Source of the DNA: Leptodesmis sichuanensis A121
Lineage (GTDB): Bacteria > Cyanobacteriota > Cyanobacteriia > Leptolyngbyales > Leptolyngbyaceae
Assembly (NCBI RefSeq): GCF_021379005.1
Contig: NZ_CP075171.1
Span: forward strand, 4,650,001-4,714,000
DNA: 64,000 nucleotides
Reading direction: 5' to 3'
Positions within the stretch are counted from its first letter, which is position 1, and every line of letters starts with the position of its first letter. The position numbers and the translations under genes were made by a program. Positions 53,451-59,511 of the stretch are shown here, one piece after another. The notes under the pieces were generated by a model that saw only the letters and a program-made list of their open reading frames with translations, ran no database searches and was not told the origin of the DNA.

Positions 53451-54054
53451 TTAAATCAAAAAGAATTCATCTTGCCATTGTTTAGCAACCCTATCCCAGC
53501 CAAAAGTTGGCTTAATTGCTAAAGCTTCACGTCTGAGGAATTCTTGTTTCTCAGGATGCTTGAGTAAATCAATGACAGCCTCAAGGAAAGCTTGATTCAC
53601 AGCAGGTTCACCAGCACAACCATCGATTTGAATTCCAACTTGTACCGTCTCAGCCAAGGCTGCAAAATTGGTCACAATACAGGCACAGCCACACGCTTGA
53701 GCTTTAACTGCAGCAATGCAAAAAATCTCAACAGGAGTCGCGCAGGGGTAAACATAAATACCTGATTTAAACAGTTCTTCAATTAACTGTTGATGCCCAA
53801 CCCGGCCATATTCATAAACATTTGGTTGTTGTAAAAGGGGCAAGAATTTTTCTTTTTTGCCCTTGAGATGGGGAAATTTAGCAATTAATGGTGAATTCGC
53901 AATAGTATCATACGTTTTCCACCCGTAAAATAGATGTAGCTCGGCATCAGGAACTTCAGCTAAAACAGCTTGCCAATGGGTTAAAAGATGCTCAATGCCT
54001 CGTAAATAATCACTAATATAAATTAGTCGTTTAGGATTTCTAACAATCCCTTGT
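53451..54054 (-). pseudogene. Glycosyltransferase (GT4-like), C-terminal part
   Basis: The nucleotide-sugar half: RNPKRLIYISDYLRGIEHLL, ELHLFYGWKTYD, NVYEYGRVGHQQLIEELFKS and the donor-site CATPVEIFCIAAVKAQACGC. The retaining-GT E-x7-E pattern is not obvious. The ISL3 element at 54055 cuts it off from its N-terminal half at 55302-55809. Joining the two with a single TCCCTTGT gives a 367-residue open frame. Surface-glycan synthesis is likely from the fold only. Confidence 0.82.
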
Positions 54055-54085: not shown

Positions 54086-54712
54086 TTAATCAGAGAAGCA
54101 GGCTAATAGTCTTTCTCGAAAATTGTTGAAATTGACAAAGCCATAAGCTTGCCGTTTAATCAATTTAATTCGGTTGTTGATTCCCTCCATTGCGCCACTC
54201 GTTGTGCGATTCCGAAAGTAGTTGCTAATCCCATCTAAATGGTTACGAATCGTTGTGCTTGCTTCACTATAGACGACTCGCGCTTGATCGAGCCACCCTT
54301 GGATCTGACGCTTGCCTTCCTCAACGGTTAATGGTTGTTCATAAATCGCGCGAAACTCTTCTTTCCACTCATAGGCTTTTCCTAATCGCTTTGACCGTTT
54401 CAGAATCTCTTCTAACTTTGTCTTTTCTTCTGCTGTTAAATCCTTGCCATTCTTGAGCAAAATGAATTTGCTACCTCGGTCTGATACACCCGATTGTCTA
54501 CGAATTTTATTTAACTCCTCATTGACTAATTTCATGACATGAAAGCGGTCAATCACTACCACGGCATTGGGAAACACTTTCTTGACTACCTTTGGGAACC
54601 CTCCCCACATATCCACGCTCACCTCTTCAACTTTTGCACGCACCTCTATGGGCTGCTGCTTCAGGGTTTCAATAATGTCTTCCTGTTGGTGACTGTCAAT
54701 CACTTCAATCAA
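54086..54712 (-). CDS. ISL3 transposase, catalytic part
   Basis: 208 residues of the DDE_Tnp_ISL3 domain: DMWGGFPKVVKKVFPNAVVV, DRFHVMKLVNEELNKIRRQ, YSEASTTIRNHLDGISNYF and the end TSGAMEGINNRIKLIKRQAY. It is separated by a -1 shift from the upstream part; the shift lies at an A7 run (54816-54822 on the plus strand). The nominal start is not its own. Confidence 0.85.
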   Translation of the reverse strand: MIEVIDSHQQEDIIETLKQQPIEVRAKVEEVSVDMWGGFPKVVKKVFPNAVVVIDRFHVMKLVNEELNKIRRQSGVSDRGSKFILLKNGKDLTAEEKTKLEEILKRSKRLGKAYEWKEEFRAIYEQPLTVEEGKRQIQGWLDQARVVYSEASTTIRNHLDGISNYFRNRTTSGAMEGINNRIKLIKRQAYGFVNFNNFRERLLACFSD

Positions 54713-55245
54713 TTTCCCGGCCTCAACGTCGCCGATAACGGTGGCGAAGTTTTGATGCCCTTTCCGCTTGCTGATTTCATCAATCCCAATGCGTTTGACT
54801 CCTGCCCATCCCGTGTTTTTTTCTGTGCATACTGATGCTTGAAAATCCCTTCAATGCGCTCAAAGCTTAATCCTTCTACGCGACCCACTTGCTCCATACT
54901 TGACAGTTGTACTTGCTGGTAAATATGCTCCTCATAGCGTCGAGTGTACTGCCGTCCTGCGTCCATAAATGTCAATGACTCAGTAAAATAACGTTGGCAA
55001 TCACGACAATAAAACTGACGACGAGCAATTTTCAAATAAGTGACTTGGCCAAAAATCGATAGGTCTCGAATCAAAATCGGACGGTTTTGATGCAACTCTG
55101 AACTTAATTTCTTACAGTGTGGACAGCTAGATTCTTGATTGAGCAAGCGCAACTTTAAGTACACTTCATTGTCTTTTTGAATGCAATTTTCAACCGTAAC
55201 GTGAGGGAAGTTAAGCAATCTATCAAGATGTATGTCCATTGGCAC
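54709..55245 (-). CDS. ISL3 transposase, zinc-finger and N-terminal part
   Basis: 178-residue frame with the ISL3 zinc finger (CPHCKKLS with a later CRDCQ), VTYLKIARRQFYCRDCQRYF and a helix-turn-helix (VQLSSMEQVGRVEGLSFERI). The genuine sequence ends around FKHQYAQKK and should continue NTGWAGVKRIGIDE in the -1 frame. The remaining residues in this frame are out-of-frame. Confidence 0.84.
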   Translation of the reverse strand: MPMDIHLDRLLNFPHVTVENCIQKDNEVYLKLRLLNQESSCPHCKKLSSELHQNRPILIRDLSIFGQVTYLKIARRQFYCRDCQRYFTESLTFMDAGRQYTRRYEEHIYQQVQLSSMEQVGRVEGLSFERIEGIFKHQYAQKKTRDGQESNALGLMKSASGKGIKTSPPLSATLRPGN

Positions 55246-55301
55246 AATCCCTGACTGAAAGTATCATATTATACGATTTTCACCCCGGATCCGGAAGAGC
55301 C

Positions 55302-55809
55302 TCCCTTGTTTTTCAAAATCAGAAAGTTTGATGCCATTTCTGGTCATTAGAAGCTTCTCCGCAGGAATCCAGTTTGGCAAAAACGATCGATGATAGTTAG
55401 ATAAAACAAAGAGCTTATTGAAACTTGATAAAAACTCCTGCCGTTGATTCTCTGCGATCGCAGACAGGAATTGAGGATTATCATGCAACCAAATGGCTAT
55501 TTTCCTAGCTTTAAGATTCATCACCATTGGATGCAACCAATAGCGATGAATAATCAGAATATCAAATTCATCCTCTGGATTGAATAACTCAAGAGAGCAG
55601 TAAGAAACCCCATTATAGATTCCTGCAAATTTTCCACAAGGATTAAACACGGTCACCTGATAACCCAGATTGACAAGCTCCTCGCTTAAATAGATAACTG
55701 CTTCCTCGCTCCCTCCAATGCCGTATTCGACTGAAGGGGCAGCCCAATCTTCTCCATGGAGTAATGGCAGATTTGAGTAAATAACGATCGAATTTGCTGG
55801 CCAACGCAT
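55302..55809 (-). pseudogene. Glycosyltransferase (GT4-like), N-terminal part
   Basis: N-terminal acceptor half: IVIYSNLPLLHGEDWAAPSV, EYGIGGSEEAVIYLSEEL with the conserved GGSE loop, LFVLSNYHRSFLP and TRNGIKLSDFEKQ. It starts at an ATG at 55809 (an in-frame TTG at 55827 is also possible). After FEKQ it enters the ISL3 end. Its 5' side is 35 bp from MITE C copy 3, so the real N-terminus might also have been affected. Confidence 0.8.
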
Positions 55810-55843
55810 AGTTAACTGGATAACCAAACCATTAAAGGTCTTG

Positions 55844-56255: not shown

Positions 56256-57050
56256 CTAAGCTAGATTCAATGCCAACTGCAATTGGGGCTTTGTCTGGGT
56301 TTCAGGGACTGGCACCGGATTTACGGTAACAGCGGGACAGTAACGGGCGAAGGTGCAACGATCGCACTGTTTACCGGGAGTAGGTTCCCAGCCGCGATCG
56401 TGCCGTAATCGCACTGCCAGATTACTGATCATCTTCTGTACCCGCTCTTGATGATCACGGGTGGCTTTGAAGCGAATCTTCTCCCCACTCCGCAGAAACA
56501 GCAAACTGAGGTACTTTAGACTCTGACGATAGGTCTGCTCCAGTGCCAGATAGTACAGCCCAATCTGCACATCAATTTCTGACGAATCAGGTAACTTCCG
56601 CTCTCGGCTCGATTTGTAATCAATCAGTTCCAGACCATCCGGCAAAAAGTCGATCCGGTCGTAACGGCCCACAATCATAAACTCCAGATTCTCGGCCTGC
56701 AGATACCCCTGAATTTTGCCTTCCACAGCCAACGGCGGATTCATGGCGACCTGATTGGCAATAAAGGTGCGGTAATACTTCTCCAAAATCTCCATGCCTT
56801 CCAGGATTTGATTGTTACTTAACCCGGAGGAATGCTGTCGCCAGCAATAGTGAATCCATTGCAGATCCGGTAGGGGAGCCTGGTAGTGCCAATCCCAGTG
56901 AAACTGAGCCAGGGCTTGATGGAGTGCCGTTCCTAAAGCCGGAGAGCCAAAAAACTCACTGGCCACCACCCTACGTTCATACCGCAGGTAGTAAGCATAG
57001 GGACAGCGATTGTATGCTTGTAGTTTAGTTGCCGAGATCTGGTATGTCAT
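56256..57050 (-). CDS. PD-(D/E)XK nuclease with Fe-S-type cysteines (RecB-like)
   Basis: 264-residue nuclease. The N-terminal ISATKLQAYNRCPYAYYLRY carries the first cysteine. The catalytic motifs follow: H in ALGTALHQALAQFH, D in VGRYDRIDF and the D-Y-K triad in ELIDYKSSRERK. A C-terminal CDRCTFARYCP supplies three more cysteines, completing an AddB/Cas4-type iron-sulfur site. Such small stand-alone nucleases are common in cyanobacteria and presumably act in DNA repair. No cas genes are near, so a CRISPR role is not supported. Confidence 0.88.
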   Translation of the reverse strand: MTYQISATKLQAYNRCPYAYYLRYERRVVASEFFGSPALGTALHQALAQFHWDWHYQAPLPDLQWIHYCWRQHSSGLSNNQILEGMEILEKYYRTFIANQVAMNPPLAVEGKIQGYLQAENLEFMIVGRYDRIDFLPDGLELIDYKSSRERKLPDSSEIDVQIGLYYLALEQTYRQSLKYLSLLFLRSGEKIRFKATRDHQERVQKMISNLAVRLRHDRGWEPTPGKQCDRCTFARYCPAVTVNPVPVPETQTKPQLQLALNLA

Positions 57051-57176
57051 GGGACAACGAGGGCAGAGAGAGTTTGGGAGAAGTTGGTCACGGGGCGTTG
57101 ATCATCAGCCATCAGTCATTGGTCATCAGTCATGCATAAAGGACAAAGATGGACGAATGACAAAGGACAGATAGTT

Positions 57177-57407
57177 TTAGTTCTGTCCGATCGGTCGCTT
57201 GAACAGCGTATCGAGATAAATGCGGGAGGCTTGCCGATGATGCAGCTTTTCCGGAGCTGTTTCACTCTGGTTTTGTAATAGGAATAGGGAGAGTGCTGCT
57301 GTAATCACCCGATCTTGATCCCAGTCAGGGCGCATCTCGAGGTAATTTCTCAGGGATTCATGCAGAATTTCGGGGACTTCGACTAGCAAACTAACAGTGG
57401 TATTCAT
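57177..57407 (-). CDS. DUF2811 family protein
   Basis: 76-residue cyanobacterial protein. The family text SLLVEVPEILHESLRNYLEM, RPDWDQDRVITAALSLFLLQ is complete; it is predicted helical, with a ribbon-helix-helix-like pattern. Function unknown. Confidence 0.85.
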   Translation of the reverse strand: MNTTVSLLVEVPEILHESLRNYLEMRPDWDQDRVITAALSLFLLQNQSETAPEKLHHRQASRIYLDTLFKRPIGQN

Positions 57408-57531: not shown

Positions 57532-57809
57532 TTTCTAGCGATGGAACATTGGAACACACAAATAACAAAGTGAGCCAATTCTGGCTGCGATCGTTCCGTT
57601 CTCCCATCAGGGGGCTGTGGAAATCGTCAGCGAGAGTCAGCACGTTCATCTCTTGGTCGCACCATTCTCAATCGAATTCTCAGGGTTGTCAATGTTGAGA
57701 AATATTACACCCTGCTTTATAGACAAAAAAGGTTTACGAAAGAATCGGCATTTGAGGCCACTTTTCGTTGCTCTTCTTAACAAAAACCGGGGTGAATTTT
57801 AAAGGTGGC

Positions 57810-58010
57810 TGGAGAAAAGAGAAACCGCGATCGCTGGGGAAAAAGCCGATTCTACCGTGCAACCTGTGGAAAACTTTGACAAACCTGGGGAAAACCTGTG
57901 GAGATAGTGTGGAAAAAAAATCCCAAGCTTGTGGAAAGAATGTGGAATTCCTGGGGAGAAGTAGAGTCTTTTTTAAAATTTGTAAATTTTTTGAACCTTC
58001 CCAAATTTAC
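57810..58010 (+). other. Candidate replication origin: DnaA-box array plus AT-rich tract
   Basis: In the 664-bp gap between DUF2811 and photolyase. Two perfect cyanobacterial DnaA boxes (TGTGGAAAA, the complement of TTTTCCACA) are at 57865 and 57908. One-mismatch versions are at 57835, 57886 and 57930; two-mismatch versions are at 57810, 57897, 57941 and 57952. All point the same way. Six of them (57886, 57897, 57908, 57930, 57941, 57952) are spaced by 11 bp or 22 bp, so they share one face of the helix. An AT-rich tract (57965-58008, with TTTTTTAAAATTTG) follows directly, like an unwinding element. DnaA genes are not adjacent, so this is a candidate only. Confidence 0.4.
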
Positions 58011-58013
58011 TCG

Positions 58014-58052
58014 CTAAACCAAGCCAGAGAACGCTCGCTTTCCTATCCCCCC
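58014..58052 (+). repeat. Palindromic dispersed repeat A, half copy
   Basis: CTAAACCAAGCCAGAGAACG followed by CTCGCTTTCC, the left half only, running into a CCCCAATCCCCAGT simple repeat. Confidence 0.65.
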
Positions 58053-58071
58053 AATCCCCAGTCCCCAATCC

Positions 58072-59511
58072 CTAATTCCCTCCAACCCGCTCCCGCTGCT
58101 GCTGATACAGCGCCTTGAACCGCCGTTGCTGTTGATTGTGATCGACGATCGGAGCCGGATAACCACAGCGATCGCGGTCTGCCGACGAAATTTTTCCTGT
58201 TACCAGTTCCTCAGTTTCCACGCTTCTGAGTTCCGGCAACCACTCCCGGATGTATTCTGCTTCTGGGTCAAACTTTTGCGCCTGACTGGCCGGATTAAAG
58301 ATGCGCAGCGGTTTGGGATCCATCCCACTGGAGGCACTCCACTGCCAGCCCCCATTATTAGCGGCCAAATCCCAATCCATCAGGCGTTGCATAAAATACT
58401 GCTCGCCCAATCGGGTATCAATGATCAAATCCTTGGTGAGAAAACTGGCCACAATCATCCGACAACGGTTGTGCATCCAGCCAGTTTCATTCATCTGACG
58501 CATGGCGGCATCGACGATCGGATAGCCCGTTCTGCCTTCACACCAGGCTTGAAACCATTCCTCGTTATTTTCCCAGGGAAAGGCTTTGAAATGGGGGCGG
58601 TAGGGGCCTTCAGCCAGTTCTGGGAAGGCATACAGGGCGTGCTGGTAAAACTCTCTCCAGGCCAATTCCTGCTGCCAGGACTGAATACCTTGGCGAGCTT
58701 CATCACTACGCGCCTGTTGCTCTACTTCCAGGGTGGCGGCCCAGACGGTACGAATGCCGATCGCCCCAAACTTCAATGCAGCACTCAACTGCGAGGTGCC
58801 AGGATGGGCGGGGAAGTTCCGCTCCTCCGCATAATCCGTAATGGCACGATCGCAAAATTCGGCTAATCGATCAGCCGCTCCCAACTCTCCGGGTTCCAGG
58901 ATTAAGGGTGTATCCCAGATGAACCCTAAATCTTTAGCTGTCGGCAAGGGAATGGTTCCGGCTTGTTGGGCGATCGCCTGCTCGTTCTCCGTTAAGCCTG
59001 TAGCCTGCTGCAATGTTTCCACAGGGGGCTGTTTGGCTTGGCGGCTCCAGTTGCGCCAGAAGGGGCCGTACACGGTATAGGGTTGCCCAGAACTGGTGGT
59101 CACGGTTTTAGGCGCATGCAGTAGTTGATCCCAAAAGGCGCAGACTTCAATGCCCTGCTCCCTCAAAGCAGCAGCAACAGCACGATCACGATCGCGGGCG
59201 TAGGGTTCCACGTCTCGATTAAAGAAAACAGCCGTAGCATTCAACGCCACCGCTAAAGCCGCAATGCCCTGTCGCGGATCGGTGTTGAGAATCAGAAGCT
59301 GACTGCCTGCCTGAGCATACTGCTTTTGCAATTCCTGCAAACACCCGATCATATAAACCGCTCGTACCGGAGCCACGTCATGGCGCAGGATATTGGGATC
59401 CAGGCAAAAGACTCCCACTACCCTGGCCGATCGTTGCCGCGCTGCCGCCAGCCCGACATTATCAGAAATCCGCAAATCGCGTCGGTGCCAGAACAGGATC
59501 AGTTGGGACAT
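58072..59511 (-). CDS. phr: Deoxyribodipyrimidine photolyase (class I CPD)
   Basis: 479-residue light-driven repair enzyme. The N-terminal alpha/beta domain starts [20 protein letters not shown] (antenna chromophore site). The FAD domain includes [52 protein letters not shown] and [16 protein letters not shown] with the electron-transfer tryptophans. It resembles the 8-HDF-type cyanobacterial enzyme. The ATG at 59511 begins the domain. It is 11 bp downstream of the Nudix gene and probably in its transcript. Confidence 0.95.

Follow-up and report, generated by a model that had tools for sequence, protein, structure and literature searches.

In the genome of Leptodesmis sichuanensis A121 we have analysed a stretch of 64,000 bp (positions 4650001-4714000 of a single closed contig of 5,348,817 bp; referred to here as the window), which carries an array of putative DnaA boxes at 57810-58010 (genome positions 4707810-4708010). 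The data suggest that the neighbouring gene DUF2811 probably has an ancient control region that responds to DnaA and would tie transcription of this gene to the DnaA cycle, and that this array is likely to be the upstream part of that region. We favour this explanation because the array is directional and phased, a motif lies in register with it, there is a promoter-like block between the array and the gene, the gene beside the array is constant, and DUF2811 is usually absent where dnaA is absent.

The box array in the window

There are exactly nine matches to TGTGGAAAA (0-2 mismatches) on the plus strand within 57810-57960, of which two are exact, three have one mismatch and four have two mismatches (Table 1). 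Six of these boxes, rungs 21 to 87, form an 11 bp ladder in which the rung at 57919 is empty. Our recount thus reproduces both the nine boxes in about 150 bp and the six-box ladder that the initial annotation had described, and the AT-rich DNA that it placed next to the boxes is also present. TTTTCCACA is a cyanobacterial DnaA box known from footprinting (PMC4674748), and the genome holds 64 exact copies of it.

The array exceeds what is expected by chance. In 20,000 first-order shuffles the maximum number of boxes with at most one mismatch was four, compared with five observed in 166 bp, and nine boxes with at most two mismatches were matched in 4 of the 20,000. In the genome itself, a cluster score of at least 3 was found in 1 of 1620 one-strand segments of 1300 bp, and this hit is very probably the array itself, as the sampled stretches include 4700001-4720000. 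The strongest evidence that the array is real is the identical rung spacing that recurs across other genomes.

Table 1. Features of the DnaA-box array and its surroundings (positions in the window; rungs in bp from the box at 57865)
Feature	Position	Strand	Basis
Two-mismatch box	57810	+	Match to TGTGGAAAA
Outlying box TGGGGAAAA, one mismatch, 30 bp ahead of first conserved rung	57835-57843	+	Equivalent at same offset in G013 (L168)
Rung 0, exact TGTGGAAAA	57865-57873	+	Box match; relatives compared
Rung 21, TGGGGAAAA, one mismatch	57886-57894	+	Box match; relatives compared
Rung 32, TGTGGAGAT, two mismatches; several relatives keep TGTGGAGA here	57897-57905	+	Relatives compared
Rung 43, exact TGTGGAAAA	57908-57916	+	Box match; relatives compared
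Rung 65, TGTGGAAAG, one mismatch; rung 54 empty, likewise in same-subtype relatives	57930-57938	+	Relatives compared
Rung 76, TGTGGAATT, two mismatches	57941-57949	+	Relatives compared
Rung 87, TGGGGAGAA, two mismatches; TGGGGAAAA in most relatives	57952-57960	+	Relatives compared
AT-rich tract; place of conserved (G/A)ATAAGAATTGCAAA motif, degraded in window copy	57961-58010		Relatives compared; composition
DUF2811 upstream block (reverse complement approximately GTAACATTTCGCAGCATTGACAAC...GCACAATGATGCGACC); promoter-like TTGACA-17-GAGAAT at 57692-57664	57654-57712	-	Conservation; sigma-70-like match
DUF2811 (PF10929), 76 amino acids, constant partner gene of the ladder	57177-57407	-	Profile E 3e-25
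PD-(D/E)XK (Cas4-like) protein, conserved neighbour of the window's DUF2811 paralogue, outside the element	56256-57050	-	Profile; relatives

Conservation of the ladder

Same-strand box pairs were found in 28 of 29 relatives, and there were almost none of the reversed control pattern. The initial annotation had placed the array in the gap between phr and DUF2811; loss of the ladder in close relatives had been named as a ground for refutation, but the ladder is kept in them, where it is DUF2811 and not phr that it accompanies. A tie to phr was rejected, with no clusters at threshold and no detectable DUF2811 in 80 phr loci.

Comparison of the genes around 40 ladder sites gives three locations. 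Type W, the type of the window (rungs 0, 21, 32, 43, 65, 76 and 87), and type V (rungs 0, 21, 32, 54, 65 and 76) lie upstream of DUF2811 and a PD-(D/E)XK gene, and type A lies upstream of a DUF2811 paralogue, usually also with a UPF0093 gene. Type T has three boxes, often at 0, 21 and 52, and in 11 sites is located just downstream of guaA. The W, V and A ladders have one constant flank, with DUF2811 or the gene that usually accompanies it (PD-(D/E)XK or UPF0093), and one variable flank. Relatives with type W usually have TGTGGAGA at rung 32 and an empty rung 54, as in the window. Types W and A are 7 kb apart in G013, suggesting that they arose by duplication.

The arrangement extends across the class. 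We sampled 70 DUF2811 loci, drawn from more than 20 families of cyanobacteria. At 62 of them a ladder (score at least 3) lies 205-510 bp upstream of the gene, whereas the opposite-strand control gives none at any of the 70; orientation is constant. This is an array conserved upstream of one particular gene, as would be expected of a DnaA-regulated promoter like that of sda in Bacillus subtilis. Class-wide, rungs fall near 0, 21/22, 43/44, 54 and 65, and distances between boxes pile up at 11, 21-22, 33, 43-44 and 65 bp.

Flanking elements

The tract that follows the last box has an A+T content of 76 %, and its best 40-mer ranks among the top 0.03 % in the window. Relatives keep a motif of about 15 bp here rather than an extreme AT tract. 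Of 69 loci, 47 have GATAAGAATT (at most one mismatch) after the ladder and none has it before, the usual spacing from the last rung being 20 or 42/43 bp. On the other side, between the ladder and DUF2811, there is a conserved TTGACA-containing block whose reverse complement reads GTAACATTTCGCAGCATTGACAA...GCACAATGATGCGACC. In the window the sole sigma-70-like match of the region is inside this block and on the DUF2811 strand, which places a predicted promoter between the array and the gene. A known RNA at the locus was considered and rejected, as Rfam gave sub-threshold matches only. Short low-complexity repeats adjoin the element at 57100-57135 and 58040-58085, and the second of these repeats has 16 further copies in the genome.

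Joint presence and loss of dnaA and DUF2811

We checked 114 genomes of the class for both genes. DUF2811 is present in all 100 genomes with dnaA, compared with 3 of the 14 without (Fisher P=6e-13, ignoring relatedness), and the 11 genomes of this sample without DUF2811 are also without dnaA. In 11 of the 14 dnaA-less genomes the strict 21 bp box pair occurs nowhere. dnaN was found in 12 of the 14; the other two, G078 and G256, are unreliable without a dnaN match and were set aside. Both belong to genus g42 and are 99 % complete in one or two contigs, and neither gene was detected in them, owing either to masking or to real absence. The remaining losses fall into at least three groups by family or genus label (f23; f18 genus g41; f31).

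Intermediate states are also seen. The dnaA-less G172 (f17 genus g70) has a stop-riddled DUF2811 and an eroded ladder, and G081, also dnaA-less, keeps DUF2811 with no box cluster, whereas its dnaA-containing congener G146 has a full ladder. Taken together, the sequences suggest that DUF2811, with its ladder, is usually lost along with dnaA, pointing to a link between DNA replication and DUF2811. Co-occurrence is not perfect: three dnaA-containing drafts are without a detected DUF2811 and three dnaA-less genomes have it. In a larger class sample DUF2811 is present in 286 of 291 genomes, the five without being the three drafts, G078 and G083.

In G042 and G106 (genus g34), dnaA and DUF2811 are kept and the ladder is almost gone. 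This lineage is a candidate for lapsed DnaA control of DUF2811.

Proposed control of DUF2811 and alternative explanations

We propose that DnaA, probably ATP-DnaA, would assemble head-to-tail on one DNA face of the ladder. The nucleoprotein complex, which in the window copy would sit upstream of the -35 element at a distance of approximately 145-270 bp, may activate or repress DUF2811, such that output tracks DnaA activity in the replication cycle; it would also hold some DnaA. DUF2811 would then probably serve the DnaA circuit as a small effector. More tentatively, and at somewhat less than even chances, the ladder and DUF2811 may make up a hitherto undescribed module of DnaA control in cyanobacteria, in which DnaA sets DUF2811 levels and DUF2811 feeds back on initiation or the cell cycle, in place of regulators of the Hda, SeqA, YabA or Sda type.

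Several observations weigh against control of DUF2811 by DnaA. The ladder is far upstream, at 200-510 bp from the start codon, and it is eroded at DUF2811 in some genomes with dnaA (G042, G106 and some copies in f2 and f27). Conversely, the dnaA-less G207 retains DUF2811 and a partial ladder, and in the three drafts dnaA is present with DUF2811 undetected. Few independent lineages underlie the co-loss, and they were told apart by family and genus label and not on a tree. The guaA-downstream ladder is without DUF2811, and not all ladders can regulate this gene. Finally, both DnaA binding and DUF2811 regulation are inferred from sequence.

The initial annotation had proposed that the array is the replication origin or a DnaA-titrating site. 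In this genome the interval between dnaA (4260379-4261737) and dnaN (4262626-4263795) contains, at 4262287-4262482, a 196 bp cluster with boxes on both strands, five of them exact and three with one mismatch. Because this cluster, 446 kb away, is denser than the window array, the array is not the chromosomal origin; the canonical oriC sits between dnaA and dnaN. A denser cluster there had been named beforehand as grounds for refuting the origin claim, which we therefore discard. The predicted DnaA-binding array is supported, and a titrating role is possible. GC skew over 54 sampled 20 kb stretches of the genome shows no clear V, and a minimum at the array, for which the initial annotation had asked, is neither shown nor excluded. 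The phased boxes do adjoin an AT-rich tract that could serve as an unwinding element, and dnaA-independent or multi-origin replication occurs in some cyanobacteria (PMC7198777). However, so extreme an AT tract does not seem to be conserved, unlike the motif of about 15 bp, and the ladder flank motifs are found in none of 21 regions fetched as origins (20 from other genomes and the oriC described here). A primary or secondary origin with 57961-58010 as its unwinding element is thus exceedingly improbable. It is also very unlikely that the ladder serves another protein with a preference for TGTGGAAAA. Its layout is unlike that of oriC and DnaA is its predicted binding protein, but the 9-mer is identical to the oriC boxes and, as noted above, the strict pair is absent from most dnaA-less genomes.

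The chief alternative, which we consider unlikely, is that the array mainly titrates or resets DnaA, as do datA, DARS or the DnaA-box clusters (DBCs) of B. subtilis, with DUF2811 a neighbour or co-factor and not the target. Consistent with this, there are three ladders outside the origin in this genome: the window array, one at 1581681-1581801 upstream of a second DUF2811 gene (a paralogue), and one of three boxes (0, 21, 52) at 3780818-3780878 (L108), directly 3' of the guaA stop with no DUF2811 nearby. Additionally, the architecture is rigid whatever the distance to the gene, and B. subtilis lacking all six of its extra-origin clusters initiates early (PMC5295017). A pure titration site, however, would need no fixed gene and orientation through paralogue duplication and relocation. 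A fixed position relative to oriC is also not supported, the distance from dnaA being indistinguishable from uniform (Kolmogorov-Smirnov P=0.37, 20 copies). We prefer a control region of DUF2811.

DUF2811 and neighbouring sequences

The DUF2811 protein matches the PF10929 profile at 88.7 bits, well above the curated cut-off of 26.6. Our literature search found no mention of DUF2811. A single-sequence AlphaFold model has a predicted local distance difference test score (pLDDT) of 66, and there was no fold or sequence match in the PDB. That it is a ribbon-helix-helix protein is only a hunch from its sequence pattern.

Elsewhere in the window, open reading frame translations alone suggest a two-frame transposase-like stretch at 54086-55245, apparently splitting a glycosyltransferase-like gene (53451-53843 and 55264-55827). 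Outside the window, 1834790-1834820 and 3975130-3975160 are identical 31 bp stretches (TGTGGAAGGGGTTCAAGGTGAAGTTGTGGAA), probably a dispersed repeat.

Comparison with known systems

The control of DnaA and replication in cyanobacteria is little understood, and DnaA is dispensable or lost in several of them (PMC7198777). A conserved DnaA-box element and one uncharacterised gene that usually vanishes with dnaA make DUF2811 a candidate DnaA-regulated gene and a possible regulator, and the ladders candidate DnaA target loci outside oriC.

Like the DBCs of B. subtilis, the ladders are extra-origin clusters of which there are several per chromosome (PMC5295017), but those of the cyanobacteria are orthologous to one another and accompany particular genes (DUF2811, guaA). 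datA, DARS1 and DARS2 of Escherichia coli are likewise non-coding DnaA-box sites outside oriC. Their distance to oriC, in relative terms, is reported to be conserved (PMC5010248), in contrast with the distances of the ladder from dnaA given above, which are indistinguishable from uniform. The cyanobacterial oriC between dnaA and dnaN has the same box (TTTTCCACA/TGTGGAAAA) as the ladder but a mixed-strand layout, and is without the ladder flank motifs.

The closest characterised case is the sda promoter, where there is also a multi-box DnaA array outside oriC and upstream of a gene. Sda is likewise a small protein. Transcription from the sda promoter is directly activated by DnaA via the upstream array, with a strong preference for ATP-DnaA (PMC4447404). 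In contrast with sda, the gene is unrelated and the ladder is strictly same-strand, has 11 and 21-22 bp spacing and is farther from the gene; it also has a conserved in-register terminal motif, found class-wide in the Cyanobacteriia.
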